DNA of 64,000 bases, from contig NC_089277.1 of NCBI RefSeq assembly GCF_963678975.1, positions 20,491,440 to 20,555,439 of the forward strand, in the 5' to 3' direction. Of this stretch, positions 39,636-56,022 are shown piece by piece. Every line of letters begins with the position of its first letter. Positions within the stretch are counted from its first letter, which is position 1. The translations under genes and the position numbers were made by a program. The notes beneath the pieces are model-generated. The model searched no databases. It saw only the letters and a program-made list of their open reading frames with translations, and was not told where the DNA came from. The DNA comes from Dysidea avara (lineage: Eukaryota; Porifera; Demospongiae; Dictyoceratida; Dysideidae).

Positions 39636-40321
39636 GCATGACGCCTGGAGCGCATAACCTGCATATAAAATACACAGTTACAAACATTTAAACACACTTT
39701 TAATGTTGTTGTTTATGTGTAAGGTGGCCTCTGGCTCTGTTGTAGTCACTCTACAGATATTTACCAATCTTCTCCTTTGAGCAATCTGTAATTAAACAAG
39801 GGTGTGGTGCTGGGCGTTATATAGAATAACACATACGGTAAAATCATCAGCATGAACAGGCGTACTTATTATACGGTTGTGTCTTCATTCACAGGCAAAT
39901 CTATCCCCACATAGTTTATGTCTCTAGGCCTCGTAGTTTTCTCAAACATTATTTATTTATTCATTCATTCATTATTAATGGCATAATTTTAACTGCATTT
40001 CGTATTATCTTTAGTACTTGGTTGTATAACTAGGACTGCGTCACATACAACCAAGTACATACACCAACGTGACAGCCCCCTGGTGAGGCTATTAGGTGGT
40101 GAAGGTACGATCCCCAAATCAACTCAATATGTCACAGTAGTGACAGATGCAACACAATAGTGGCATCATAACTAAAGGCCACCAGTAGCTAAGTGCCAGT
40201 ACATCATTGGTATGGTAATGGCACAGTGATGTGTACACAGTATATTTAATTATGTATACAAAATGTACAGGAGAGAACTATACATTATTGCAGTATTGTT
40301 ACATTATAGACAACATCAACA

Positions 40322-40529
40322 GATAATAGTGGTGGATCTAGAAATTTTCAGAGAGGGTTTCATTTCAAAGGCTAAAGTATGAAGTTTTTCACCAGTACAG
40401 AGTCCTTCCATAACACACATAGCAATTTTATCACTCACACGACGACTCGTCAATAAATTTGGGGCGTGCACTATTTTCAGAGGGGGTTTCAGCTGAAACC
40501 ATTGCAACCCCCCTGTATCCGCCACTGGA
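40322..40529. mobile_element. Probable MITE with GTGGTGGATCTAGAA / TATCCGCCAC ends
   Basis: The ends form an imperfect inverted pair, and sequence inside (GAGAGGGTTTCA / GAGGGGGTTTCAGCTGAAACC) is also mirrored. It is related to the outer element at 21,189-22,299. The remainder of 39,640-41,060 shows nothing else I recognise beyond mariner-like GGTCACTATAATGTGG phrases near 40,960-41,050. Confidence 0.4.
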
Positions 40530-41065
40530 TAAAAATTGTTAGCCAATATACAGTACAGTATCAACATCAACTAGAGTTAAATAAGGGTCATCAGTGGCTG
40601 TCTGTTAACAGAAACTTCACATTTTATCGTCCTGGGTAGAATACAGAATGAATAGACATCTCATTCCATACCTGGTCAACAACTTAATAACACCACAGCT
40701 GGTGGCCACGGCAAATCAGTTGTGAAGATTTAGTCAGTACGGATTTGTATTCCAATAAATTGTGGCAGATGTTAGACTTAGATGTGGCTCCTACTACTAC
40801 TACAATGTTTGTGTGAATTGGTTGGTTTGAAAAAGTAATTATACAAAAGCTGTCTTAATTACATTACACAAGCTATGAATTAGCTGCTGCTCCCCTTCAG
40901 TCCATGAGTCCACGAGTCAATGAATCCAGGCCGCAGAATAGATTAGGCCCTTGAAATGGTCACTATAATGTGGTGGTCTTATTAATGTGGTCATGAAGTA
41001 CACCTTAGCTATGTGGACTTACTTGACATGGTCACTGTAATGAGGTGGTTTAATTTTTCGTTACA

Positions 41066-41249
41066 GGGTCAAGAAGTACTACTGTAAAGGGAATCAACAA
41101 ATAGATTATAATGCAGAGATCCCATTTGAGAAGAAGCCTGTTCCAGGGTTTGTGATACCTCTGAAGAAACTGTTAAAAATGAAGAGCCTAACTTCAAGAA
41201 GATGAAATGTTCAGATGTCGATGGTGTAAGAAGAAATGCTGAAGGGGAG
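41066..41249 (+). pseudogene. CDC5L: CDC5L exon encoding DYNAEIPFEKKP, frameshifted
   Basis: After ttcgttacAG the exon reads IDYNAEIPFEKKPVPGF in one frame, and the continuation CDTSEETVKNEEPNF is in the next frame. One T seems to be missing at gggtttgtgat. The donor is GTgaat. Confidence 0.82.
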
Positions 41250-41273
41250 GTGAATTTGTATGTGGGGTACAGG

Positions 41274-41372
41274 TATATTATGTTAGTCACGGGGTACTGA
41301 TGTGTATTAGTCATGGGGTACTTGTGTTTTAGTCACAGGGTACTGGTGTTTTAGTCATGGGGTGCTAGAATA
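41274..41372. repeat. About four copies of a 23-24 bp GGGGTACT..TTAGTCA unit
   Basis: Phrases of the form TTAGTCAYGGGGTACTGGTG follow one another with small length changes, just inside the intron after the frameshifted exon. Confidence 0.75.
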
Positions 41373-41394
41373 TTATAGTGTACTATGTATGTTA

Positions 41395-42486
41395 GGGGTG
41401 GTCCACAATTTTCTGCTTTTTCGCGAGCGTACAAACTGTACGCTGGGGGGGGGGGGTAAAACTGCATGTACGCTTTTTTTAAATGTCGATCACGTGAGTT
41501 GGCGAGAAATCCGAATGTAGTGATAAGGCTCTAGTAGTAAATGTCTACTGCTACATATTCAGTGTCCAATTATAAACGGTGGACTGAAGCAAACTGATGC
41601 TGTTAATGCATGGGCCCAAGCCAACACATGATTGGATGAAATTGTGCTTCAGCGAACTCTGGAAAGCAGTAGTGTAGCTAAGGTTAGCTACCAATGAAAA
41701 GCTTTTTAAAGGAAAGGAAAGGAAAGATAAAGCTCATTGAATCTACAGGTAAGACGGTTATCAGCGTGATAACACACACTACAGGCTTTATATACTTTTA
41801 TAACAGCACTTACTTTTCTTTCTCCTTAGTCTTAGCCTAGCAATTAACACTGATAAACAGTTACAACTGAATAGCTTGTACTACACTGCTTGTTGCTTTT
41901 GTTTTTTACCTGCAGAAAGTGTTGTTGTGGGTTTAGGAATACTGTTGGGTATGGGAGGCTGGATTATGTGGGTACTAATTTGTTTACACTACATAGTTGT
42001 GGTAGTTGTGGGTTGCCTATAGAGAAAACCTGTCTCTGCAAAGTATACCCACAACTCCTGACTCCAGTCCACCTTAGACTATGGTGAATACCCAACAAAC
42101 TAGTACTACTGTTGCAACTGCCAGTTTTGGGATGGTTTTGTACCGTATGAACACGTTGAAGATAGTCAAGAACTGTTTCTATGATGTGTAGCTATGTACA
42201 CATTTGCAAATGTGCATCAGGTACTAATGCCTACTGTGTGTAGGAATGTTTCTTCCAGGGTATATATCAGCATCAAAAGCATCAAAATGATAAGATGCCT
42301 AAAAGACAAAACAAATACCATACATGAATTTGCAATATTAAAAAAGTATCCATGTGTTTGTTCTGCTTTACAATACATCAATATGTCAACATTTATATAG
42401 TACGCTTTAGGCTGGGGGGGGGGGGTTAGAAAAAAGAGTACTCTTTTTGTATGCTCGCTAAAAAGCAGAAAATTGTGGACCACCCC
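41395..42486. mobile_element. Harbinger-like element, GGGGTGGTCCACAATTTTCT termini, TTA duplication
   Basis: 1.09 kb bounded by GGGGTGGTCCACAATTTTCT and its inverted complement, with TTA on each side (41,392-41,394 and 42,487-42,489). Both arms also share a G-run next to a GTACGC word. The centre has short open frames only. Because the tip together with TTA is partly palindromic, the superfamily is a tentative call. Confidence 0.75.
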
Positions 42487-42543
42487 TTAGTTATTGGGTA
42501 CTAATAGAAACTTGTTTATTGTGCTGTCATCTGTACACTTTAG

Positions 42544-42623
42544 AAAGAACGTCAAAAAGACAAGTTGAAGCAGAAGAAAAGGAAAGAATCTGATTTACCT
42601 GCAGCAGTAATGCAAATGAACAA
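42544..42623 (+). pseudogene. CDC5L: CDC5L exon (KERQKDK...KESDLPAAVMQ)
   Basis: Between cactttAG and GTatgt. It reads KERQKDKLKQKKRKESDLPA, matching the basic segment of CDC5L. It ends in phase 2, compatible with the next exon at 55,779. The intron that follows hosts the 10.9-kb transposon. Confidence 0.85.
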
Positions 42624-42730
42624 GTATGTAATGTGTGCATGTCTGTAGACTTGTGATACTTGTAAATTATCCTGTGTTTGCTTTATTTCTGTGGTGGTTT
42701 TGCATCCTTGATTGTCACTATTTTGTCAAA

Positions 42731-42763
42731 AACACAGTGGAATTAATTTTGTCATAGTCCAAT
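42731..42763. repeat. Left terminal inverted repeat of the 10.9-kb element
   Basis: 33 bases that are the exact inverted complement of 53,596-53,628. The outward flank is gtCAAA. Confidence 0.95.
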
Positions 42764-43061
42764 TTAATTGCCATAAAACTGCATGAAATTGCTTGTCCAA
42801 CCAAAATACATAAACACTTTTTGTGAAAATTCTTGAGGGGTATTCAAGGAATTGTCAAAAACTACTGATCGCTTTTAATGATGCTTACTGTTATACTGAA
42901 ATTCTTGAGTACCCTGGTTAAAACCATTGCAGATATTGTCAGATTCTTGAGAGTGCATGCTTAGAAAAATAGTATTTTCTTGAGTCCCTAGTAAAATTGA
43001 TTCAGAGTTAACCTAGATCCTTGTGAGCTATTCTGTCCAAAATACCTAAATGTTTTAGTCC

Positions 43062-43225
43062 CAAGTTGAACGGACTATAAATTTAAGTCCTTTGTTTCAA
43101 CTCGGGACTCAAATTTGAGTCCTGTATTGAAACAAAGGACTCAAATTTGAGTCCCGTGTTGAAACAAAGGACTCAAATTTGAGTCCCTAGTTGAAACAAA
43201 GGACTCAAATTTGAGTCCCCAGTTG
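43062..43225. repeat. Left subterminal array of GGACTCAAATTTGAGTCC palindromes
   Basis: Four good copies plus a degenerate first copy, spaced by GTTGAAACAAA at about 34-bp intervals. Each core is an 18-bp perfect palindrome, suited to a symmetric DNA-binding protein. Confidence 0.92.
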
Positions 43226-43882
43226 AAACAATACAACAGTACAGTTCCAATAAGCATATTTTGACAACTACGTACAGACAGCATGAAACAGAATCAGCGA
43301 ACTACATACAGTAGTCTAACAACTAGGTACAGACAGCATGAAACAAAAACAGTGAAAAGTGCATAGCTTAATTGTCACTACGTAATTGTTGGTAAGCCAA
43401 CTTCAATTTCTCTCTTGTAGCAGCTAGAAGTCTACTACTAGCACTAAGAACAATTGGAAATAGTATAGCACTTATGGGCACCCTCTCTTTCCAAGTTTCT
43501 CCTCTTCTTTGCTTCCACAATTTCCAGGGCTCATGGTAGGCACCTACCATCCACTCAACCTCTACCTCCTCAGAATTATTCCCTGGAGTAGTAGTTACTT
43601 TCCCAATTTGAGGTTCCTCTTCCTCATATTGTTGCAAGTAGCATGCAACAATGGCACCTGACTCTATAGCTGAAGCTGTCTCAACTGGTATAGGCACATC
43701 ACTAGAAGAGACAGCATTGTCTGTGGTTGTCTCCGTATGTCTCACTGTTATCTAGAAAACATGTATACATATACCTATGTAAATACTTTTATAACACTTT
43801 CAGTCAGTAATACAATATGGTTCAAAAGCAGCCTAAAAATAAATTACTAAACCTTATGTTTAGACATTACAATTACAATTAC

Positions 43883-44188
43883 TTGTTTGGGGGTAGCTGT
43901 TTCCTTTGCAACCAATGATGAAGTTTCACGGCTAACACCTTGTTCGCTGCTTTCTTGCTGCTGAGATGAGAGAACAGCAGTTCTGTGAAGAACAGGTAGC
44001 TCCCACTTCAATGAATTTGAGCTGGTTAACATCACAGGATTAGCTTCTTTAAAATGTTCCCAGTTTTCACGAGCAGACAATGATAAATATGGCATGTACT
44101 TGGGGAGATCTTGATAAAAACGATTAAGGTCAACCTTCTCACAGCTAGGCACAACCTGAGCTCCCTCGTTAGTAACATCAGGAGTACC
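43883..44188 (-). pseudogene. Exon 6 of the LPVGHTHEDID gene
   Basis: Exactly 102 codons between tatactgcAG and GTaatt, in phase 0 at both ends. It reads FYQDLPKYMPYLSLSARENW, a segment without a recognised domain. Confidence 0.75.
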
Positions 44189-44396
44189 CTGCAGTATATA
44201 ACAAGTTGACTACATCTAAAAAACCAGGCTTACAGTTAATATAGTAACCACTAAACTACCTACTGCAATGCAACTGCGTAATTAGCATTTCATTAATTAC
44301 AAAATTGTAATTCATTAATTACCGAGTTTGTTTAGCCTATTTTTAAATTGAAATTCTTAGTCCAAAACCCATAGGCTGCTCTTGCTTTCCGCTCTC

Positions 44397-44455
44397 GTAT
44401 GAAGCGGACAGGTATGAAGCGGACAGGTATGAAGCGGACAGGTATGAAGCGGAAA
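44397..44455. repeat. 15-bp tandem repeat
   Basis: About four units of TATGAAGCGGACAGG in the intron between exons 5 and 6. Confidence 0.9.
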
Positions 44456-45170
44456 CGACAAGGGTGAACAGGATATGGTTAGGCTAACATCAACAAACAT
44501 ACTGTAATCAAGTGCTGCCCTGTACCATCTGGAAGCCATGAATCTGAAGAAAACTGCTTGTAATGCATTTCCACCTATAATTGTATTTAGTTATATACAT
44601 GATGTAAACCTGAAGCAACAACTGCACAACATGTATACCTTAGACGACTTCTTTGTGAACCTGAAAGCATGATACTTTGAATGATGTTCTACTTTTCCTA
44701 GGAAAGGCTTCATCCATTCTTTGAAGTCCCACACACCTTCCAATATTTGAGCCTCAGGGTTGGACTTGTAGCTGGCATGAATTTTCTGCACAAGATCTAT
44801 CAAAACCATAATAATGTGTATGTATATAGTACAAAAATTGAGCTTCTGCTAATACAGACCTGGCAAAGATTCACAACCACTTTGCCGAATGGCATCAGAG
44901 ATTTTTGAAAACAACTGGTCAATGTCCTCATGCGTGTGACCCACTGGCAAAAAGTTGACTTGTACCTACAATTAGAAAGAATCAAAACACAGGTAATCAT
45001 ATGTATAACAAATTTTGGTCTAACAGAATCTTCCATGTTTGTTACTGTTTACACACATACAGTAGATATACAGTGTATTATTCACATGTACAATCCTATG
45101 TACCAACAGCTAACTAAAATGTGTAGCACATTATAATCAATTTAGGTCCATACCAGTGAGAAGTAAATAC

Positions 45171-45585
45171 CTTGCGAAAGATCTCCAACTGAACAAGAAT
45201 AGCACAAAATGTCAAGACATACTTATTCTTGTTTTCTCTGCACGTATTGTCCATTTGGATGTAAAACACCTTGGGTAAAGCATTAGTTGTTAGAAAATTT
45301 ATCAAGGAATTCATGATGACTGTTATTGTCATGTTGCTATCATGGGGGTACTGAATGAGATCAATATAGCTATACACCAACTTCCCCGCTGGAGCTTTAG
45401 TGTGCAGAATCACTCCAGTGACATGGGTCCGAAGACGCCAAAGCGAAGATGTAGACTTTGAAATCAATTTAGTGTTTGGGAGGTTGGTTTTCGATTGGTC
45501 CATCCCATCCACTATGATTGTCAGGTACTTGTCGGGCGATGAACGTGACTTCTCTCGGTGGGAGTGGTACTTCTTACGTTCACAT
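45171..45585 (-). pseudogene. Exon 3 of the LPVGHTHEDID gene (first two catalytic-type Asp residues)
   Basis: Open without lesions from the acceptor catgtgcAG to the donor GTattt. It holds the TIIVDGMDQSK and QMDNTCRENKNKY blocks. Its first base completes the codon left in phase 2 by exon 2. Confidence 0.82.
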
Positions 45586-46804
45586 CTGCACATGAAGAAA
45601 GGAAACATCACTTAAGGTACACACCTAAACTCCAATATGTACAATCAGGAGCTTATAAGCGCCAAAGGCTTGACCTTATCAACACCAATCATCACCAACC
45701 AACAGTTCTCTATCATCAGTAGAGGATAAATTTGATCAAAAGTGAACTTGACACAGTGTACTTGTACAGGGTATACTAGAGTTGGACAATCTCTTCCTTT
45801 TCTAAATTATGAACTCTTGGTACAATTTAACCCATAAAACAGTGCAAGTTTTCACCCTTCAATGGCATACACTATAATAGAAGTTTGTTAAACCTCAGAA
45901 ACATGTACAGTACATGTAAAAATGCACATATTGTGCCTGGACGTATTGTAAAAATCCATTCACTGGACTGGACTGGAACACTGGACTGGACTCAAATATT
46001 CTTAGTCCAAATATTTTTCCAAGTAAATTTGCTGATGGCTACCAAAGATTTGTGTCTCATCGAGTGATTTTCTTTTATTTAAATTAACTGAACATATTGA
46101 TCATTTGCCAAGGGGCACATGCAAGTTAGCAACAAAGGGCTGTAGGGTAAAAATAATTTCCATGTCAATAAGAAAACCCACCATATATATATATATATAG
46201 TGAATTCATGCTATACCAGTGTACAGTGCAGATTTCACCAGGATATGTAGTATAGCTTGAGGACAAAATACAACAACTTAGGTACAGTGTATAAAAGAAT
46301 TAAAGCCGCAAATGAAATAATTGCTGAATACTTAGCAGGAAGTATCCCTTTTTGACCCACGTATGTACGTGTATATTGCAACAAGGTACCCAAGACAGCT
46401 AGTGGTGGACAGCTAAATTATTGTTGTTGAGAAATTTCTAGGAACAAACACTAAGTAAGTGCATATATGGCAATGGCACTATGGAGAACAAAAGCAGTCG
46501 TGTGAACTGGAATTCTGATTATGTTCTGAGATTTTGTGTATAAACAAATGATAAATACTTGTTAGGACAAGCATGAGTAATTCTTGTTGCCTTCATCAAT
46601 AGTGAGCAAAAATAGTCTGAGTCCAGTAGTCCAGGTGAATGGATACACGCAAAAATGATGACAATTGGGCTGATTGTGAAAGAAGGTATAATATATATTT
46701 ACACACACATATTCTATCAACATAATATATATGCTTATGCACGTTCATCAATGTACTGTAAATACTCAGTTCAAGTGGAAATTATAACAATTTGATGTAT
46801 ACCG

Positions 46805-48076
46805 CTATGGATTCAAAAAAGGATGTTGCAAAGCATGGCTAGCTGTGATTCGTGTAAATGGATTCAAGTCCAGACACTTTTCTAACAAATCATAGGCTAC
46901 AGCAGGAGCAAAGTCAGGAGTATGTTTGTATGATCCTTCGAATATTGATGGAGGAAACTGTTCTGCAAATTCAAGTAGCTGAGAATGGTCTGTAGCAAAC
47001 TGAACTGCATTCAGTCTATCAGGAACATTTTCTACCTTACACTGTGTACCAGCATTTGTATCTTTGAGCAAAGCTGATCGACTCTGTCTTAAAGTTTCAC
47101 AAAGGTGTGATAGATTTTGTGGATAGATAGTTGGTGAACATGTGAATTCTTTGTGCAAACACTTGGCAACACTCGTACTTTTTTCTGAGCCAAACAGAGT
47201 AGTAATTTCCATCATAGCTATGAGGTCACTGGGAGCCTTAAAAAATGGATATTTACAGCTCAAAAGACAAAGAAAAATTACTCCAGCAGACCAAATGTCT
47301 ATAGCAGTTGTTTGCTGAGGATACTTCAACAGAACTTCAGGTGCCCTGAAGCCTGGTGTGCCACTTCTTGCTGATACTTGGGGTGGACGTTGACAACATG
47401 TGCGGCAGATTTCATTTGTGTGATGTTCACACCTATTATGTCTTACTGAAAGAGTCATCTTAGCATCAATCTGAGCAAGTCCAAAGTCTATCAATCTAAA
47501 TTTCCTCTTCTTGCAGTTATATAGGCAGTTACTTGGTTTTATGTCACGATGTATGATTCCTAGTTCATGCACCGCAACCAAAGCTGTAAACAAGGCCTTC
47601 ATATAATCTTGAATTTCATTTAGAGTGAGGGTGGAAACATAATTTCTGAAAGAATCGTGTTCAAAGAATGGCTTTACTAAAGCAACGTGACTGTTATAGC
47701 GCACAAAAGTTTCTAGTGAAACAACATTATTGCAATCATTTAAAAGTAAAAGGCACTTGATTTCTTTTTCTATTCTTTGAGGGGCACATGTAGGAAGGAT
47801 ATACTTCAATGCATACAGGGTGCTTGGACATTCTCGCAAGGAAGCTAGAAAAACACGACCGAATGTACCTTGTGCAATTTTGGATTTAATATTAAAAGTT
47901 GATTGAATTATTGGAATTTGATTAATGAGACTTTTGTTGCAACCACAAGAGAAGATTCCTTTTGTAGTGGCCACACAAGAACACTGATTATCTGATGGCA
48001 TCACACAGGGCAAAACATTCTCACTACAATTAAAAACAAAACAGAAGGGTGTATGACGATGCACATACACTAACAA
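46805..48076 (-). CDS. CDC7: CDC7-type serine/threonine kinase, intact and intronless, carried in the transposon
   Basis: CDC7, with its activator DBF4, phosphorylates MCM helicase subunits to fire replication origins. The 423-residue frame has the glycine loop AQGTFGRV (68-75), ATP lysine in YALKYI (91), HRDIKPSN (176-183), DFGLAQ (197-202), RSGTPGFRAPEVL (237-249) and DIWSAGVIF. A Cys-containing segment before GTPGFRAPE and the C-terminal NPFTRITASHALQHPF match CDC7 rather than other kinases. The large insert between DFG and APE of vertebrate CDC7 is short here. The first ATG is at 48,076, but Met26 (MPSDNQCSC) is the likelier start, because an acceptor (tttaattgtAG) lies between them. It has no introns and no lesions, and sits between exons 2 and 3 of the transposase-like gene on the same strand. 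No poly(A) tail is visible. Whether it is a captured host gene or a divergent paralogue needs a tree. Confidence 0.9.
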   Translation of the reverse strand: MLVYVHRHTPFCFVFNCSENVLPCVMPSDNQCSCVATTKGIFSCGCNKSLINQIPIIQSTFNIKSKIAQGTFGRVFLASLRECPSTLYALKYILPTCAPQRIEKEIKCLLLLNDCNNVVSLETFVRYNSHVALVKPFFEHDSFRNYVSTLTLNEIQDYMKALFTALVAVHELGIIHRDIKPSNCLYNCKKRKFRLIDFGLAQIDAKMTLSVRHNRCEHHTNEICRTCCQRPPQVSARSGTPGFRAPEVLLKYPQQTTAIDIWSAGVIFLCLLSCKYPFFKAPSDLIAMMEITTLFGSEKSTSVAKCLHKEFTCSPTIYPQNLSHLCETLRQSRSALLKDTNAGTQCKVENVPDRLNAVQFATDHSQLLEFAEQFPPSIFEGSYKHTPDFAPAVAYDLLEKCLDLNPFTRITASHALQHPFLNP

Positions 48077-48088
48077 AATATAACTTAC

Positions 48089-48210
48089 TCCACTCGGTCA
48101 GTGTGTTGTTTCAGCATCTCCTTAAGTTGTGCTTGCTTAGACTTGTCTAAACAATTTTTGCGCTCCAACTTGATCTTCACACATATGTCGCATTTGGCAA
48201 ATCTATTTTG
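48089..48210 (-). pseudogene. Exon 2 of the LPVGHTHEDID gene
   Basis: Bounded by cttcatgtAG and GTaagt. It reads NRFAKCDICVKIKLERKNC and ends QHTDRV in phase 2. That phase fits exon 3 of the same gene (45,585) and also the acceptor in front of the kinase. Confidence 0.8.
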
Positions 48211-48322
48211 CTACATGAAGACACAAAACATAACTCAATTATGCAGGGACAAAAAGAAGATACAAGAACCTAGCACTTCAGATATTATGTGTCCACCAAT
48301 GCATATACATACAAACACTCAC

Positions 48323-49183
48323 TTCTGGTATCACCACATTAGAAAACTTGTCATTCCAAACTTTGTAAAACATGCTGATCCCAAGCACACCTTCCCGTAA
48401 ACTTCCTCTGGACTCCATGTCACTGCAGTATCTGTGATAATTAAATGTCTTTCTGTGTTTCCCAGCAAGGGAGGTGTATCTGATTCTTATCTGGCATCCG
48501 GTCACCGATCACATTAAAGTACCTGTCCATCCACGCCACAGCTGCTTCAGTCTTTGTGTTCTGTCTCTTTTTGCCGGAGTTTCCGTGCTCTAAAGCCGTA
48601 GTCCTGTCATGAAATAAAATCTGACTTTGCATCCGTTGTATTTTACGATGGGAAACAGAAAAGAGTTTGCACCAAGCTCTTTGGCAAACTTCCCTTCCAG
48701 CAACAAAGAATTTGGTTGCAATCGCCCCCTTGGTGCTTTCAGAGCTATTCTCACGGAGCTTGTTGAATAGCCACTTCTTTCGGTCAGTGCTCCTTTTGCA
48801 TTGGTCATACTCACTTTTATATGACATGACATTCTGTACTGTCAGGTGACGAAGACAGCAGTTGTCACAGCACGCGGATACCAACAGTTTTCCTATCTTT
48901 GCCAATTCCTCGTCTACATTATCCTCCCCACAACTCTCATCACTAAGCGAGCAATCGCTGAATGTTCTGTTATCATCGTTAGAGGGTTGGCACACAGATC
49001 GAAGGAGCCTCGCATATCTTCAGATGGGAAAAGGTATTCTCCTTCGCAGGCGTACTCACTAACAGTTTCATCTTCGCTAGGAAATATCCCATCCTGTCCG
49101 CTGGAATATCCATCTAATTCTTCTTCATCGCCAAGCGCATCTTCGCGACAACGTTTTCTTCGCGGTGATCCGCAGTCGGCCAT
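48323..49183 (-). pseudogene. Exon 1 of the LPVGHTHEDID gene, with two frame changes
   Basis: It starts MADCGSPRRKRCREDA with a basic patch, followed by an acidic stretch. The frame shifts by one near 48,990 into CQPSNDDNRTFSDCSLSD, and again near 48,455 between WETQKDI and YHRYCSDM. It ends FSNVVIPE before GTgagt. The middle contains AVAWMDRYFNVIGDRMPDKN. Confidence 0.75.
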
Positions 49184-49294
49184 TTCAACACGTGTTTCAG
49201 GTCAAGTTCGTTTGTGATCATGTGAAATTTCATGATCACGTGATATTTCAGAATGAACTCCACTGGACTCGGCTAGACTTGCTTCGCAATCGCC
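49184..49294. promoter_or_regulatory. Compact bidirectional promoter between head-to-head genes
   Basis: Only 111 bp separate the two start codons. The stretch has the symmetric words TTTCATGATCACGTGATATT and GATCATGTGAAATTTCATGATC, including a CACGTG-overlapping palindrome. No TATA box is evident. Promoter function is inferred from position. Confidence 0.55.
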
Positions 49295-50057
49295 ATGACT
49301 CGTCCGAAACGTTGGTTCCTCAAGAAAGATGGGGAAACGTCTGTGGTGATCAAGAACGTCGATGGTTTGATTAAAAAACCAAATGCAGCGCGACCACTTG
49401 GGAAGATTATTCAGGTACGTAACTAGCCACGTAGTTATGACATTTTCGTGTAATGCCATGTATTCAATACTTTATTTTGTCTGAAGCTGAAATATAGTCT
49501 TGGTGCACATTAATAAAATATTAACTCGTGTTTATTGGTGGATTAAAGTAACTTATTGTTTCAGGCAATGGCTGCAGCTCCTGGAAAGTATTCGGAAAAC
49601 TCTATTGAGGTATAAAGTTGTTGTTTGTTTACCTTTGTATTATGTACACTTCATTTTCCCACTTTTAGTTCAAATGTGTCAATGGCCGCATTGTCTTGGC
49701 ATTGAATTATCACCAGTGGAATACTTCCCTCATTGCAGAGATTATGCCCTTTGATGATTTCATTCATGAAGTCAATGGATTAGTTGGAGAAGTTATGGAT
49801 GCCACTTTGACCACCCCCGTTATCACCGAAAGAAGTGAACAGCCTGGTACATCAACTTCTAGTGCATCTCCGAGAACCCCAACTATCCGGAAAAGAAGTC
49901 AGCAAGTGACATTGCAATCACCATCGAAGAGGTGCAAACACATCACGGACATCATCGATGAAGATATTGAAAGGCACAAGAAAGGTACCTTGTTATACTA
50001 TTTTAAGGTGCATTCCAAAGGGACTACTTATTTTCAAGAGCTAAGAATGTAGATCAT

Positions 50058-50533
50058 TAAATGTGACCAGATTTATAAAAAGGTACCGAATCTACACAAA
50101 AATCAAAATCGATTCAACTTTTCACTGCCAATCAATAGGTGTACTCTTAGGCTATTGATTTCGATTTCCACACCATTTCTACCCTACCCAGTCTGCTTTC
50201 TTGAGCCGTGTTTCTGGGCACTGTACAAATCAAGGGCTGTGCTCTGGCACCCTGGGACAGCACCGTCGTAGCTGGGGACTGTGTTAAAGGTGGGAAGAAC
50301 CAAGAAGAGTTGGCTTGAAGCTTGCTAAGCTCATTTGAAGGTGTGTGAAGAGCTCCCACTGGACTCAATTTGTGCCAGTGACCTTTACTCGTCTTTTCCC
50401 TCCATTTATTGCTCCTATAAGTAGCTCACCCACCTCCCCTATTCTACCACTTGTAATATTATTACACCTCAAAAAAATCTCACCAGAAAGTTCAAATGTG
50501 CAGATTCGGTACCTTTTCGCTAATCGGGTCACA
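50058..50533. mobile_element. MITE inside an intron of the ParB-like gene
   Basis: TGTGACCAGATTTATAAAAA followed by GGTACCGAATCTACAC is mirrored by GTGCAGATTCGGTACCTTTT and CGGGTCACA at the right. The centre is unrelated and GC-richer. It is nested in the 10.9-kb transposon. Confidence 0.75.
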
Positions 50534-51410
50534 AATCTTGTTATTGTATATGTCACTTTTCAAGGCCTCTGTCGATAATCTATCATATATGCAATCAACC
50601 TTGTGCAACATGAAGCAGGATGTTTGTTATACACTCTATAATGTATGTAAATATGTTGGCCTTTTAATTCTGTTTATGGTGCTATGTATTACTCATCCAG
50701 GTCTGTTTAGGATTCCCGTATCTCAGCTTGTTGAACCTCCACGGGACTCACGATTACTCAGAGAGACTGACAAAGTTTTTGTCAAAAATTTGAAAACCAA
50801 GATGCTCTCCGACCCCTCAGCTCCAGGAGCTACCCCGATGGCTGTGTTATGTAAAGATGTGTCCTTCTCAGCTTTTAATGAAAAACACGTCAATGTTTAC
50901 AAGTATGAAGTACTTGGTGGTATGCACAGCTTCCTGGCCAAGTATGACCTAATGAAGGATTACCCTGAAAATCCGTTCTTCAGTGAGGCTTTAGCTGAAG
51001 TATACATTGATTTATCCGATGAGCAAGCGTTAAGGCTGGCTCAACGTCACAATGCAAACTCTCACTATATCCACAAAATTACACACAGGGATTTGGTATG
51101 TACATATGTTTTGTGTTCTTATGTAGAGTACTATGTGCATGCATGTACGTATGTCATTCTTGTGTTTTAATTTAAACTTGCCTGGTTAAGTGAAGTTAGT
51201 TGCTTAAACTGTTTGTTTGCATGCAAGTCTGCCTATTGTTAGTATTGAATGCGTGTCGAGCCAGATTATACAGACTGTCATGACAAGAGAGTAGCGGTGA
51301 GACACCAGTGCCGACTGTTGAATGGAAAGAATCGTGTAAAAAGGCAATTATACCTGATGTAAGTAAACTGTCTTATCAAAAGCTATTCTTGAATATGATC
51401 TATTGTATAG

Positions 51411-52031
51411 GACATTTCAGCTACACACCGTGACGCCATCCTTCACCAGGCATCATTGTCTAAGGATGTTTGGACTTTGGCTACGGAAGTAATGAATGCT
51501 TTTGAAAAGGGAAAATTAAAGGATCAGAAATTAAAGACAGCTGGATTGGCCAAACCCGAATTTAAGCAACAGTACTTAGCTCCTATTAGATGCCTGGAAA
51601 ATGCTGAACAGACACTACTTCTCACTCGGTGTAAGAACAAAGAGATTTCTTTGGCAGAACTAAAGAAAGAAGCAAACTCATTCAAACAACTGGCCACACT
51701 GAAGAAAAACTTTGTTAAGCTGACCAACTCGACAAGCTGGGATGATGCTGTAGCTAAATTTCCTCTTTTTGCATGTGAGGTGGAGCTAAGGAAATTTACT
51801 TTGTTGGACCTTAGCAAGGGGATTCCTTCTTCATTCGTTGACTTCTGTAAACGAGCCAAATTATCCAAAGATACTGCTGGCAGTGGTGTAAACCACCAGG
51901 CTTTTGTACAGCATGGCAAGGTGGTTGGATTCACTATTAAGGAGAAGCCTTCTGAGCTTTGTGGTGCTGTGATAACCAACAGCTTTGTAGGATTTCAAGG
52001 AGCAGACATGATTATTATACCCATTAAACCA
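51411..52031 (+). pseudogene. Exon 6 of the ParB-like gene
   Basis: A 207-codon open exon between tattgtatAG and GTaagt, in phase 0 at both ends. It is helical, with VWTLATEVMNAFEKGKLKD early and DFCKRAKLSKDTAG later. It ends GADMIIIPIKP where an active methylase would carry D-P-P-Y. Confidence 0.78.
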
Positions 52032-52638
52032 GTAAGTGGTTGTTTCTTTAGTTACCTACCTTGTAACCTTTTATCTTTAAAGGGATCCAGCAGTGAAGAA
52101 ATTGAAAGCATCTCTTATACTGCCAAAGAGATAAACACAGTGGCAGGGCTCTATACGTATATTGTATTGGGTATCTGCGAGCCAGAGGCATTTCCAATGA
52201 TAAAGGCTGTCTGGGGAGGCATATTTTCATTTGTGGAAACCCTTTTCTTTGCTGAAGAGTCTACCAGCAGATCAGGTTACTTTGAAAATTTAGAGAGAAT
52301 TTGTGTGTATTGAATTAGCTTATATCAGTTACCATTTTGCTTGTCAATTGTCAACTTATGGTGTATACTCTTTTCAAGGTAATTCACTTGAGCTTGACAA
52401 GTGTGTGTCAGTGGCTATGCTGGGATTTCAATCTGTTGATGATACTGCCAGGGCTAATCAGTTCATGTTCAAGGAAGGTGAAAGCAAGAAGAATTTTTAC
52501 TGTGGGGACCATTCAGGACTGTGCGAATATCTATTGGAACATTTTTGTCCTCCTACTGGAACTGTATTAGATATGTCATGTGATCCAGCAGGTATGTATG
52601 TACTCATACAGCTATATCATATGCATTTGTTGTTAATA

Positions 52639-52771
52639 CAGTGGAGCCTCTCTAAGATGGACATTATTAGAATTTATTGTTGTTCTTTGTAAAGTTGTGT
52701 CCTTACTTCAGGGGTTTATAAAGTATAGAGGCTGTCCTCAATTCAGGGGTGTCCTTTAAGAGGGTCCACTG
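52639..52771. mobile_element. Tc1/mariner-type MITE in the last intron of the ParB-like gene
   Basis: 133 bp, ends CAGTGGAGCCTCTCTAAGA and GAGGGTCCACTG, with TA on each side. It is nested in the 10.9-kb transposon. Confidence 0.8.
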
Positions 52772-53006
52772 TACACGTAATCTAAACCTTCATTGGTTGT
52801 ATACAAAGGAATCTTATTATGTAGGTGTCATGGCGGTCACTGCACTTAAGATGGAGCGCAATACTGTTGCTATCTTAGAAAATGATGAATGTTGTGCTTC
52901 TGTCTTTGGGAAGCTAACACTTGTTGCAAGTTAACTGACTTAATCAACTTGATAACTAGCATACAATTTCTTTTTGGTGTCAATCGTGTGTTTTATTGTA
53001 TGCTAT

Positions 53007-53262
53007 TTAGGGTCTCAAATTTGAGTCCTCTGTTTAACTGAGGGTCTCAAATGTGAGTCCTCTGGTTCAACTGGAGTGTCCAATTTGAGTCCTGGTTCAA
53101 CTAAGGTCTCAAATTTGAGTCCTCTGGTTCAACTAAGGTCTCAAATTTGAGTCCTCTGGTTCAACTAAGGTCTCAAATTTGAGTCCTCTGGTTCAACTAA
53201 GGTCTCAAATTTGAGTCCTCTAGTTCAACTAAGGTCTCAAATTTGAGTCCTCTGGTTTGTGT
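53007..53262. repeat. Right subterminal array of TCTCAAATTTGAGTCC units
   Basis: About eight units spaced by TCTGGTTCAACTAAGG at about 31-bp intervals. The CTCAAATTTGAG core is the same palindrome as in the left array. The two arrays lie at similar distances from their respective ends. Confidence 0.92.
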
Positions 53263-53595
53263 TCAGATTGTGGGATAGTAAATTGCGTTGAATTCTTGAG
53301 TCAGTGTCTGAATGCATTGACTGTTTTCTGGAGTCCCCGGTTCACAGGTAGAGGAACATGTGCATTTCTTTGAGATTAGCACTGATGGATTTTGCTATAT
53401 TTTTGAGTACCCTGTTCTACCAATGTCTGTAATTAATGAATCTCTTGAGTCCTGCATTCAGCAACAGCTTTGACTTAAATGACTTTTAATGGTTGTCAGA
53501 AAGTTTCCTTGATTTCTTGAGAGAACACTACTTTGATTGTGCTTAATTCTTGAGTGATTTTCTCAATAAAATAGCCTTTTTTATTAAAAAAATAG

Positions 53596-53628
53596 ATTGG
53601 ACTATGACAAAATTAATTCCACTGTGTT
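53596..53628. repeat. Right terminal inverted repeat of the 10.9-kb element
   Basis: Exact inverted complement of 42,731-42,763. The outward flank is CAAAcc. Confidence 0.95.
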
Positions 53629-53992
53629 CAAACCTCTCTGTAAACCATTACTTTGTGTTTGTTTGTAATAGTGACTGATAGTCTGATACTCTGTTGAAAT
53701 GTAAAGGCTTTTCTATAGGCTGTTTCTGTAGTAGTTAACCTGAGAACATTGTTAAAGGAAGTATGATAGTTGCTTTCTCTTTTACTCTGTCTAGGGAGTA
53801 TGCACATTGCCTGATGCATGTGAAATGACATCATACCTGCTCCTGTGACTGTTAGCCACATAACCAGTGTGGAGAAGAAAAGGTATACAGTAGGTCACCA
53901 GTAAAAGACAAAAATGTTTTATATACTACATCCTTTGTGAAATATTTCCAAACCTTGAATAGTACTGTATCATACAGTACGATAGTAACTGT

Positions 53993-55122
53993 ATAGTAGG
54001 GACCACAAAGGAGTAGGCGTGGCCCACGGAATAATATCACCCAAAAATCAGCCTCAATTTTCCCTTACGACAATGAGGCAGTATTGGTGAGGTAAAACTA
54101 AGCCCAAACAAGCTTTCAGATCGACCCGAAACGCTTTCAACAAGTTGCTACGGAATTTTAATATTTTTTTATTCAACGGAATTTTCTACTGACTGACTGA
54201 CTGATTGACTGACTGACTGACTGACTGACTGACTGACTGACTGATGCCTTCAGACAAGCGTAACTCGATAACAGCTAAGGCTACGGGCTTGATCTTTTCA
54301 CTGTTCAACGTCGCTTCAGCTCGACAGGTGCCTTTTGGCATACCGCAGTATGTACAATGCATTCTTCATGGACTTACCAGTGTCCTCCTTTGTGTCCCAT
54401 TCATCTTTGCTGACAGGGAAAGGTGTCGAGTTGGCGCAAGCACATGATGGCTTCCCTTCGAAACGGAAATCGTCCGTATTTTTCATCATGGCTATTTTGA
54501 TATGCAGAGGTGGTTTTCAAACAGTTCTTGATTCGTACTGCCGTGTAATGGATTGAACATAGCCGACAGTGAAGCGTAATGGATACTTCACTTTTCAGAC
54601 AATAATTAATATGATTGGGGGGGCACGGCACGATTTCTTTCTTTTGGTATGCGTGGATTGTGGAGGTACTTTTCGAAAAGTTCTTAATTCGAAATGCTGT
54701 GTAACGGGTTGAACATAGCTGACAACGAAGCGTAATGGATACTTCACTTTTCACACGATAATTGATATAGCTGGGGCGCGCGGTGCCTTTTCAGATGCGG
54801 TATGCATGGGTTCACCAGTCATAATAAAATTATTTACAAAAAAAGTTCACAAGCAAGTACACGAAAAAATTTGGAATTTTTAACTAGAGTAGGGACCATA
54901 GCACATCGATAAAAAGTACTGAAACAAGTTGGAGCAGTCCATGATATTAAATCACTAAAACAATAAGAAGTGTTATATCCCTACTGTGCATTTCCGTTAT
55001 GGTATCTTGAGCACAGTAGGGATATAACGCTTCTTATTGTTTTACAGTGATTTAATATCATGGACTGCTCCAACTTGTTTCCGTACTTTTTATCGATGTG
55101 CTATGGTCCCTACTCTAGTTGA
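53993..55122. mobile_element. Non-coding element of the AGTAGGGACCA family, copy 1
   Basis: It begins ATAGTAGGGACCACAAAGG and ends with TGGTCCCTACTCTA, an inverted pair. It includes a (CTGA)n run at about 54,186-54,243, and the stretch MPSDKRNSITAKATG-like in translation recurs in copy 2 and partly at 55,230-55,440. Its right 245 bp is a palindrome of its own. Confidence 0.65.
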
Positions 55123-55127
55123 AAATT
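54884..55127. mobile_element. Palindromic MITE at the right end of copy 1
   Basis: Arms of about 105 bp starting CTAGAGTAGGGACCATAGCA, including AACAATAAGAAG, around a short loop. A second copy occurs at 57,256-57,455. Confidence 0.82.
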
Positions 55128-55229
55128 CCTATTTTTTTTGTGTACTTGTGTATATTAGATTATGGAGGTTTGGGCTTTCTCACTAAACTAGAATCAGTCT
55201 CACAACACCTTCATGGTGTCCCACCATTT

Positions 55230-55560
55230 GATGTCACTTCAGCTTGACAGGTGCCTTTTGGCATACCACAGTACATACAATGCATGCTTCATGGACTTAC
55301 TTTTGTCCTCTTTTGTGTCCCTTTTATCTTTGCTTACAGTGCAAGGTGTCAATTTGTAATAGTGCCACATGATGGCTTCCCTATGTTTGTATCAGGTGTT
55401 GTCCGAGATTGGTGTTGTCCGAGATTGTTGTTGTGACTGGATTGATTGCAGAGGTCCTTCTCGTAGTGTTCTTCCTTCACTGTGTAACAGGCTGAACATA
55501 GTTGAAAACAAAATGTAAGGCCACTTCGCTATTTCAGTAATTGGTAGTTGGGGCGAGTGA
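55230..55560. repeat. Third, diverged copy of part of the AGTAGGGACCA element
   Basis: CTTGACAGGTGCCTTTTGGC and the following 150 bp match 54,310-54,470 and 56,860-57,000. It is 5'-truncated. Confidence 0.6.
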
Positions 55561-55562
55561 GG

Positions 55563-55733
55563 TTTGATTAGGGATCAAAGAAATAAAAAGTAGTGATACT
55601 AGGGAGGCTGTCTACACCTACCTGAAGAAACGCTAGTGGACATTTAGGGATTTAATGTCCACTAGTATATCTTAGGTGTATGGGCAGCCTCCCTTGTTTC
55701 ACTACTTTTCATTACTTTCTAATTGAGGTTAAA
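55563..55733. mobile_element. Palindromic MITE (GATTAGGGATCA type), copy 1
   Basis: The arms contain AAGTAGTGATACTAGGGAGG and GCTGTCTACACCTA, inverted on the right as TAGGTGTATGGGCAGCCTCC. A second member lies at 63,661-63,846. Confidence 0.7.
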
Positions 55734-55778
55734 AACCCTAGTTCTTGTAATGATTAAGAAGTCTTGTAATGTTTGTAG

Positions 55779-56022
55779 GGCACATAACCTGGATGCTAAG
55801 AAGCATAGCAAGCTAGTTCTCCCAGCATCATAGATATCAGATTCAGAGCTAGAAGAGGTGGTCAAGTTGGGCATGACTAGTGAGAAGTCTAGACTACTAG
55901 CTGAAGACACAAGAGACAGTGAGATGGCTACACAAGATCTACTAGCTAGCTACTCAGTCACTCCACAAATCACTCCAGCCAGGACCCCCAGAACACCAGC
56001 AGCTCAAGATGTTATATTACAG
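55779..56022 (+). pseudogene. CDC5L: CDC5L exon with an internal TAG
   Basis: After tgtttgtAG it reads HSKLVLPAS, then TAG at 55,831, then ISDSELEEVVKLGMTSEKSR and, at the end, ARTPRTPAAQDVILQ. Other CDC5L proteins have Gln before ISDAEL, so a C-to-T change (CAG to TAG) explains the stop. The donor is GTatgc. Confidence 0.88.

Follow-up and report, generated by a model that had tools for sequence, protein, structure and literature searches.

A recently mobile multigene DNA transposon with a probable DUF7869 transposase and a CDC7-like kinase in the sponge Dysidea avara

A 64,000-nucleotide stretch of the Dysidea avara genome (the window; RefSeq assembly GCF_963678975.1, contig NC_089277.1, positions 20,491,440 to 20,555,439) contains a multigene element of 10,898 bp at 42731-53628. 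Its first and last 33 bases form a perfect terminal inverted repeat (TIR), located at 42731-42763 on the forward strand and at 53596-53628 on the reverse strand. The tetranucleotide CAAA stands on both outer sides, at 42727-42730 and 53629-53632. These borders had been noticed in a preliminary description of the DNA and were confirmed by an inverted-repeat search, which returned arms of 39 nt (42731-42769 and 53590-53628) with 95% complementarity. Window positions 40001-56000 were scanned for AAC..GTT ends of 14 nt with at most 2 mismatches, 3-16 kb apart and with an exact 4-bp flanking repeat. A single pair was returned, the ends of this element. Between the ends lie a multi-exon gene for a DUF7869 protein (gene 1; 43368-49183, reverse strand), a CDC7-like kinase in one open exon (46808-48023, reverse strand), a gene with ParB-like and methyltransferase-like parts (gene 3; 49295-52933, forward strand, outer borders set by eye) and subterminal repeat arrays. 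The element is a genuine DNA transposon with several genes, which moved recently and duplicates 4 bp of its target.

A search with a 61-nt end against the 550.8-Mb genome found four places: both ends of the window element and both ends of a second copy on contig C15 (12471073-12481796; 10,724 bp), whose ends are the same. Such a search can miss repeats, and solo copies or short derivatives may lie under its reach. The two copies are 98.9% identical (10,444 of 10,558 aligned sites) and differ in the 60-base flanks outside either end. Copy 2 is bordered by GTAA on both sides, the window element by CAAA. For both insertions, empty sites exist that hold one CAAA or one GTAA. The two flanks of the window element, joined over one CAAA (99-nt query), detected unoccupied paralogous sites at C6:20864192 (98%) and C6:21283396 (95%). 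Both sites read GTCAAACC at the junction and are ungapped there; small gaps lie nearby, 1 nt to the left at the former and 4 nt to the right at the latter. Copy 2 is located within a satellite array, with 15 unoccupied CCATGTAA matches in 19 kb of its surroundings. Thirteen of them read CCATGTAACTGGGTAA, continuing as CTGGGTAA with a single GTAA. Two insertions, each with empty-site controls, therefore establish the 4-bp target duplication. Together with the second copy, they bear out the earlier view of the locus as a multigene TIR transposon. The flanks of the window element (42400-42730 and 53633-53900) belong to a low-copy repeat, for which the same contig has five or more further places (C6:20864192, C6:21283396, C6:16412691, C6:16624402 and C6:16672715), two of which match both flanks.

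Compared with copy 2, the window copy is without 10 bp in the N-terminal exon of gene 1 (at 48995, shifting the frame) and 70 bp at an exon border of gene 3 (near 51245). Copy 2 in turn misses 207 bp of gene 1, as well as 53 bp and 2 bp at exons of gene 3, that are present in the window copy. Each copy thus misses stretches of both genes, so that both gene sets may be incomplete and either copy may be non-autonomous. A 15-bp minisatellite at 44397-44453 has 3.8 copies in the window copy and is 30 bp shorter in copy 2.

Gene 1 was resolved into several exons on the reverse strand. The approximate N-terminal exon region (48494-49183) has homologues in two other families of related elements, families 2 and 3. 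An exon with a FAKCDIC segment follows at 48089-48210 (start set by eye). The exon at 45171-45585 (end by eye) encodes the first half of DUF7869 with two catalytic-like aspartates, in VDGMDQ and MDN, and matches Pfam PF25273 with an E-value of 1.7e-34. A third catalytic-like motif, GHTHEDID, is encoded at 44850-44965 (borders by eye). The second and the third aspartate have 39 residues between them when the splice is placed as the sequence suggests. A genome search with the DUF7869 exon gave 38 matches, merged to 29 loci, several of them near-identical and dispersed over the contigs. Dispersed near-identical loci would account for the abundance of the LPVGHTHEDID family, in line with the initial proposal that a transposase role explains it. 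Motifs were read in 30 cut-out loci. Most readable exons have GMDQxKxNxP in common, together with a strand whose last residues are DN. Fifteen of the 30 loci showed GHTHxD(I/V)DQ, including two overlapping loci in which it reads GHTLED. In all 15 the aspartate of the third motif is retained, while the glutamate is replaced by alanine in locus L025 and by serine in L036.

The fold of the DUF7869 exon was modelled from an alignment of the window exon with 14 genomic relatives (15 sequences in all). The model has a mean predicted local distance difference test score (pLDDT) of 68.4 and a predicted template modelling score of 0.65. It consists of helix, strand, helix, strand, strand, helix, strand and helix; from the second of these on, the order is that of RNase H, except for a helix of low confidence that separates strands 1 and 2. 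Strand 1 contains the first aspartate, and the second stands where strand 4 ends. Foldseek returned 646 matches at E≤10, and among the best 50 the RNase H-like Argonaute PIWI, RNase H1, Mos1, Metnase and RuvC prevail. The motifs and the fold match, which is weak and partial, are compatible with a DDD enzyme of the RNase H type. In agreement with the proposal that the LPVGHTHEDID protein moves the element, DUF7869 is most likely its DDD-type RNase H-fold transposase and would be catalytic. Six short DUF7869 peptides, which reach close relatives only, found no confirmed relative in viral and bacterial or archaeal contigs.

Gene 3 is divergent from gene 1. Its ParB-like exon (50700-51098, forward strand) has a homologue in family 2; the ParB assignment follows a sequence pattern that we take to be characteristic. 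A middle exon is located at 51411-52034 and a methyltransferase-like exon at 52378-52590, both on the forward strand. Joined with the next exon, the methyltransferase-like end gave weak PHROG matches, one annotated as methyltransferase (E 0.014) and others of unknown function (E 0.0004 and 0.017). Pieces of gene 3 had no match in the PDB, and a gene 3 exon had none in phage records. Three genes had been described in the element. The DUF7869 gene and the kinase were corroborated by Pfam and PDB matches; for the ParB/methyltransferase-like gene, no Pfam model backs the reading. DNA binding by its product is putative.

The linkage of the two genes is a genome-wide observation. The middle exon of gene 3 occurs at 31 places, 30 loci once merged. 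A gene 3 match lies within 30 kb of DUF7869 at 16 of the 29 loci, and all 16 pairs are divergent; in 2000 uniform random placements the count never exceeded 2. A DUF7869 gene and a divergent gene 3 therefore recur as the core of an element type. A separate search found a 36-residue piece of gene 3 at C8, one of the unpaired loci. Between genes 1 and 3 of the window element, the 18-bp unit TGATCACGTGAAATTTCA occurs twice in tandem (49215-49250) and is kept in both copies; this tandem is a possible shared promoter element.

Subterminal arrays were described inside both ends and are indeed present: a left array at 43105-43231 (period 32, 4.0 copies, with the palindrome GGACTCAAATTTGAGTCC in the unit) and a right array at 53011-53257 (period 32, 7.8 copies). 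The other two families also have arrays with periods of 32-34 bp: in family 2 the distance to the left end is 0.8 kb, and in family 3 the distance to the left border is 0.7 kb. Family 3 has a second, internal array at 20-24 kb. One hand-picked unit per array was scored for inverted repeats against 300 shuffles. The unit score was reached by 0 shuffles for the left array of the window element's family (family 1), by 1 for the left and 2 for the internal array of family 3. The right array of family 1 (25/300) and the array of family 2 (73/300) did not beat their shuffles.

Both ends could be read in two families, with two copies each; three copies have exact 4-bp flanking repeats. The DUF7869 protein of family 2 (contigs C3 and C12) is 48% identical to that of the window element. 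Its C12 element has 11,355 bp and AAC..GTT ends (AACTGATT...AATCAGTT, 16 of 17 terminal bases paired), flanked by CAAC on both sides. The C3 and C12 elements are 98-99% identical in pieces, and the C3 element holds extra DNA. Family 3 (38% identity in DUF7869) was found at C1:44092675 to beyond 44130930, C6:910936 and C7:29202158. Its C1 and C6 copies begin at a common left border, AACAATCTC, after differing flanks, and share 97.5% identity over the 24.7 kb that follow; C7 has the same DUF7869 and gene 3 matches. About 38 kb separate the left border from the end of the gene 3 match. If DUF7869 and gene 3 belong to one element, family 3 may exceed 38 kb per copy, as a minimum. The closest relative of the window element, on C8, is 70% identical in DUF7869. 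A further dispersed DUF7869 group (C4:14803419, C1:29892562 and C2:43204228) has one TAA per copy in the matched frame and no gene 3 match within 30 kb.

Several observations weigh against a DUF7869 transposon with gene 3 as a regular component. Only two full copies were found in family 1, each with the deletions in genes 1 and 3 relative to the other. The third motif was unseen in the other 15 of the 30 cut-out loci, many of which are partial or have stops. The fold model, at a pLDDT of 68, omits this motif, which is encoded by another exon. No Foldseek match reached 1e-3 (best E 0.02), and unrelated folds, such as glucokinase and a phosphatase, are mixed lower among the best 50. Neither the ParB-like nor the methyltransferase-like exon of gene 3 had a Pfam match, and structure modelling of the ParB-like exon was unsuccessful. 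At thirteen of the 29 DUF7869 loci, no gene 3 match lies within 30 kb. The pairs at the other 16 are non-independent, several being copies of one family. In family 2, the C3 copy is flanked by AGCA and AGCT. A duplication of constant length, anticipated for such elements, was thus exact in three copies and off by one base in the fourth. Termini without the genes had also been considered. A family 2 left end on C11 has no DUF7869 match nearby but does have gene 3 about 2 kb in, and its right end was absent from the one stretch inspected. It is probably a deletion derivative. The right end of family 3 was not found when matches to the left end were sought in the stretches inspected. On C8, an 18-kb end scan gave four candidates at 4 mismatches, and five shuffles gave 0-6, so that the ends were unrecognised. 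Two guessed stretches around a relative on C2 had no element likeness, and its ends were not within them.

The kinase is located in an intron of the DUF7869 gene, between gene 1 exons and on the same strand. Its best PDB match is 4f99 (E 1.1e-84), and the top four of the best 60 matches are all CDC7, well ahead of the rest. Full-length matches in the genome are confined to the two elements; a decayed piece adjoins the DUF7869 relative on C8. The likely host CDC7 is spread over five separate matches (C9:25831030-25837202), and the transposon kinase is one exon. This suggests a retrocopy, which probably landed in the transposase intron. Searches of the family 2 element, of the C3 stretch and of 32 kb of family 3 brought up no kinase match; gain of the kinase in the lineage that comprises family 1 and C8 is therefore probable. 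The gene 1 donor at 48089 has two in-frame acceptors, one at 65 nt (the kinase exon) and one at 2,503 nt (the DUF7869 exon), and both are kept in copy 2. The kinase exon would thereby be spliced onto gene 1, as far as splice signals can tell. The kinases of the two copies differ by 3 synonymous and 7 other changes, too few to judge purifying selection. In one literature collection no CDC7-carrying transposon was met; PMC3411249 contains the word CDC7 once. Among the features of the element, the kinase passenger and its alternative splice phase stand out as the most unusual.

A cut-and-paste transposon with a 4-bp duplication, a putative DUF7869 transposase, gene 3 as accessory and the kinase as passenger very probably explains these features jointly. 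The DUF7869 protein would cut at the AAC...GTT ends by DDD-type RNase H-fold chemistry. Gene 3 would be a recurrent accessory whose product probably binds and perhaps modifies the DNA of the element; candidate sites for it are the subterminal palindrome arrays. The CDC7-like kinase would be a later passenger, a probable retrocopy into the transposase intron, usable as an alternative last exon. An extended version, in which this alternative exon ties transposition to replication while the ParB-like protein acts on the arrays, is speculative and rather unlikely. If it were true, one donor with two in-frame choices would fuse the kinase to the N-terminal part of the transposase and bring an S-phase, origin-firing kinase to the element's own ends. 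A replication kinase in a transposase intron with joining splice signals brings a connection of transposition with the cell cycle within reach of direct tests. For DUF7869, a Pfam family of unknown function, the element provides a likely function with an anatomical test by ends, 4-bp duplication and empty sites.

Origin by segmental duplication, with inverted ends due to chance, would be in keeping with the flanks of the window element, which are themselves duplicated on C6. This origin is ruled out for practical purposes: the 60-base flanks of the two copies are unlike, and both copies have empty sites with a single 4-bp repeat. The inverted ends and the duplication of fixed length are those of a TIR transposon, with the one-base mismatch in one of the four copies read at both ends. 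DUF7869 could instead be cargo, with the unit moved by gene 3 or by a transposase from elsewhere. Gene 3 is as widespread as DUF7869, and 14 of its 30 loci have no DUF7869 match within 30 kb. It is DUF7869, however, that has the RNase H-like order and the motifs, and the gene 3 pieces searched had no recombinase-like match; the cargo explanation is improbable.

The superfamily is a closer question. Sola elements have DDD transposases and 4-bp duplications. The window element is probably best placed with Sola, and with Sola1 in particular, because of its 4-bp duplication, its DDD-like motif and its divergent accessory gene; it is set beside Sola by descriptions rather than by sequences. That it fits no superfamily, as first thought, is not borne out as stated, given this agreement with what is described for Sola elements. 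DUF7869 may well be the already described Sola1 transposase, the element then being an ordinary Sola1 transposon with unusual cargo, and this is somewhat favoured. The duplication at two sites with empty-site controls and the DDD-like motif fit it. According to excerpts, a Sola1 element of Ectocarpus has a ParB-like and methyltransferase gene opposite the transposase (PMC12477816), and Sola1 (mean 5,445 bp) is among the longest DDE/D elements in a bivalve survey (PMC10294476). The comparison was made with these descriptions. A superfamily of DUF7869 elements apart from Sola and all others is a weaker possibility. A sequence search of the PDB gave no significant relative for the DUF7869 exon (best E 0.15), the words DUF7869 and GHTHEDID were not met in the one literature collection searched, and AAC..GTT ends recur in two families. 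The third family has an AAC start, but its other end did not turn up. The absence from the literature is a weak argument, and the features of these elements also fit Sola.

Among known systems, the CMC/Transib group (EnSpm, Chapaev, RAG-like) is similar in the ends. Two bases into the left end, at 42733-42739, the element reads CACAGTG, the heptamer of V(D)J signals and of Transib ends, where the duplication has 5 bp. The likeness is taken as a coincidence because the duplication length here is 4 bp. In the excerpt consulted, the stretch from the second aspartate to the last catalytic residue of these transposases carries C(2)C and H(3-4)H motifs (PMC12730594). The group was ruled out since neither CxxC nor Hx(3-4)H was seen by eye in the 39 residues from MDN to HED, with the third residue as chosen. 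Academ elements share 3-4 bp duplications, as described for AcademX in part of PMC10045372; the helicase and nuclease mentioned there had no Pfam match above the cut-off among the window-element exons scanned. The Kyakuja-Dileera-Zisupton (KDZ) elements are likewise large and carry accessory genes. KDZ was ruled out by duplications of 7-8 bp, 7 bp in Kyakuja and 8 bp in Zisupton, versus 4 bp here (excerpts of PMC12730594 and PMC12477816).

The Sola elements are closer. Sola1 shares the 4-bp duplication and DDD-like motifs. Sola2-Fanzor composites, as excerpted from PMC3627910, resemble the window element in 4-bp duplications, short TIRs and passenger genes; they differ in the passenger and in AT-rich duplications (AWWT) versus CAAA, GTAA and CAAC. 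Sola1-1_Ec32 of Ectocarpus has the ParB-like and methyltransferase gene opposite the transposase and a large size, and the excerpt of PMC12477816 mentions neither a CDC7 passenger nor subterminal palindrome arrays. The same excerpt reports the ParB/methyltransferase accessory from transposons of brown, green and red algae (PMC12477816). The element of D. avara would extend this accessory of algal transposons to an early animal.

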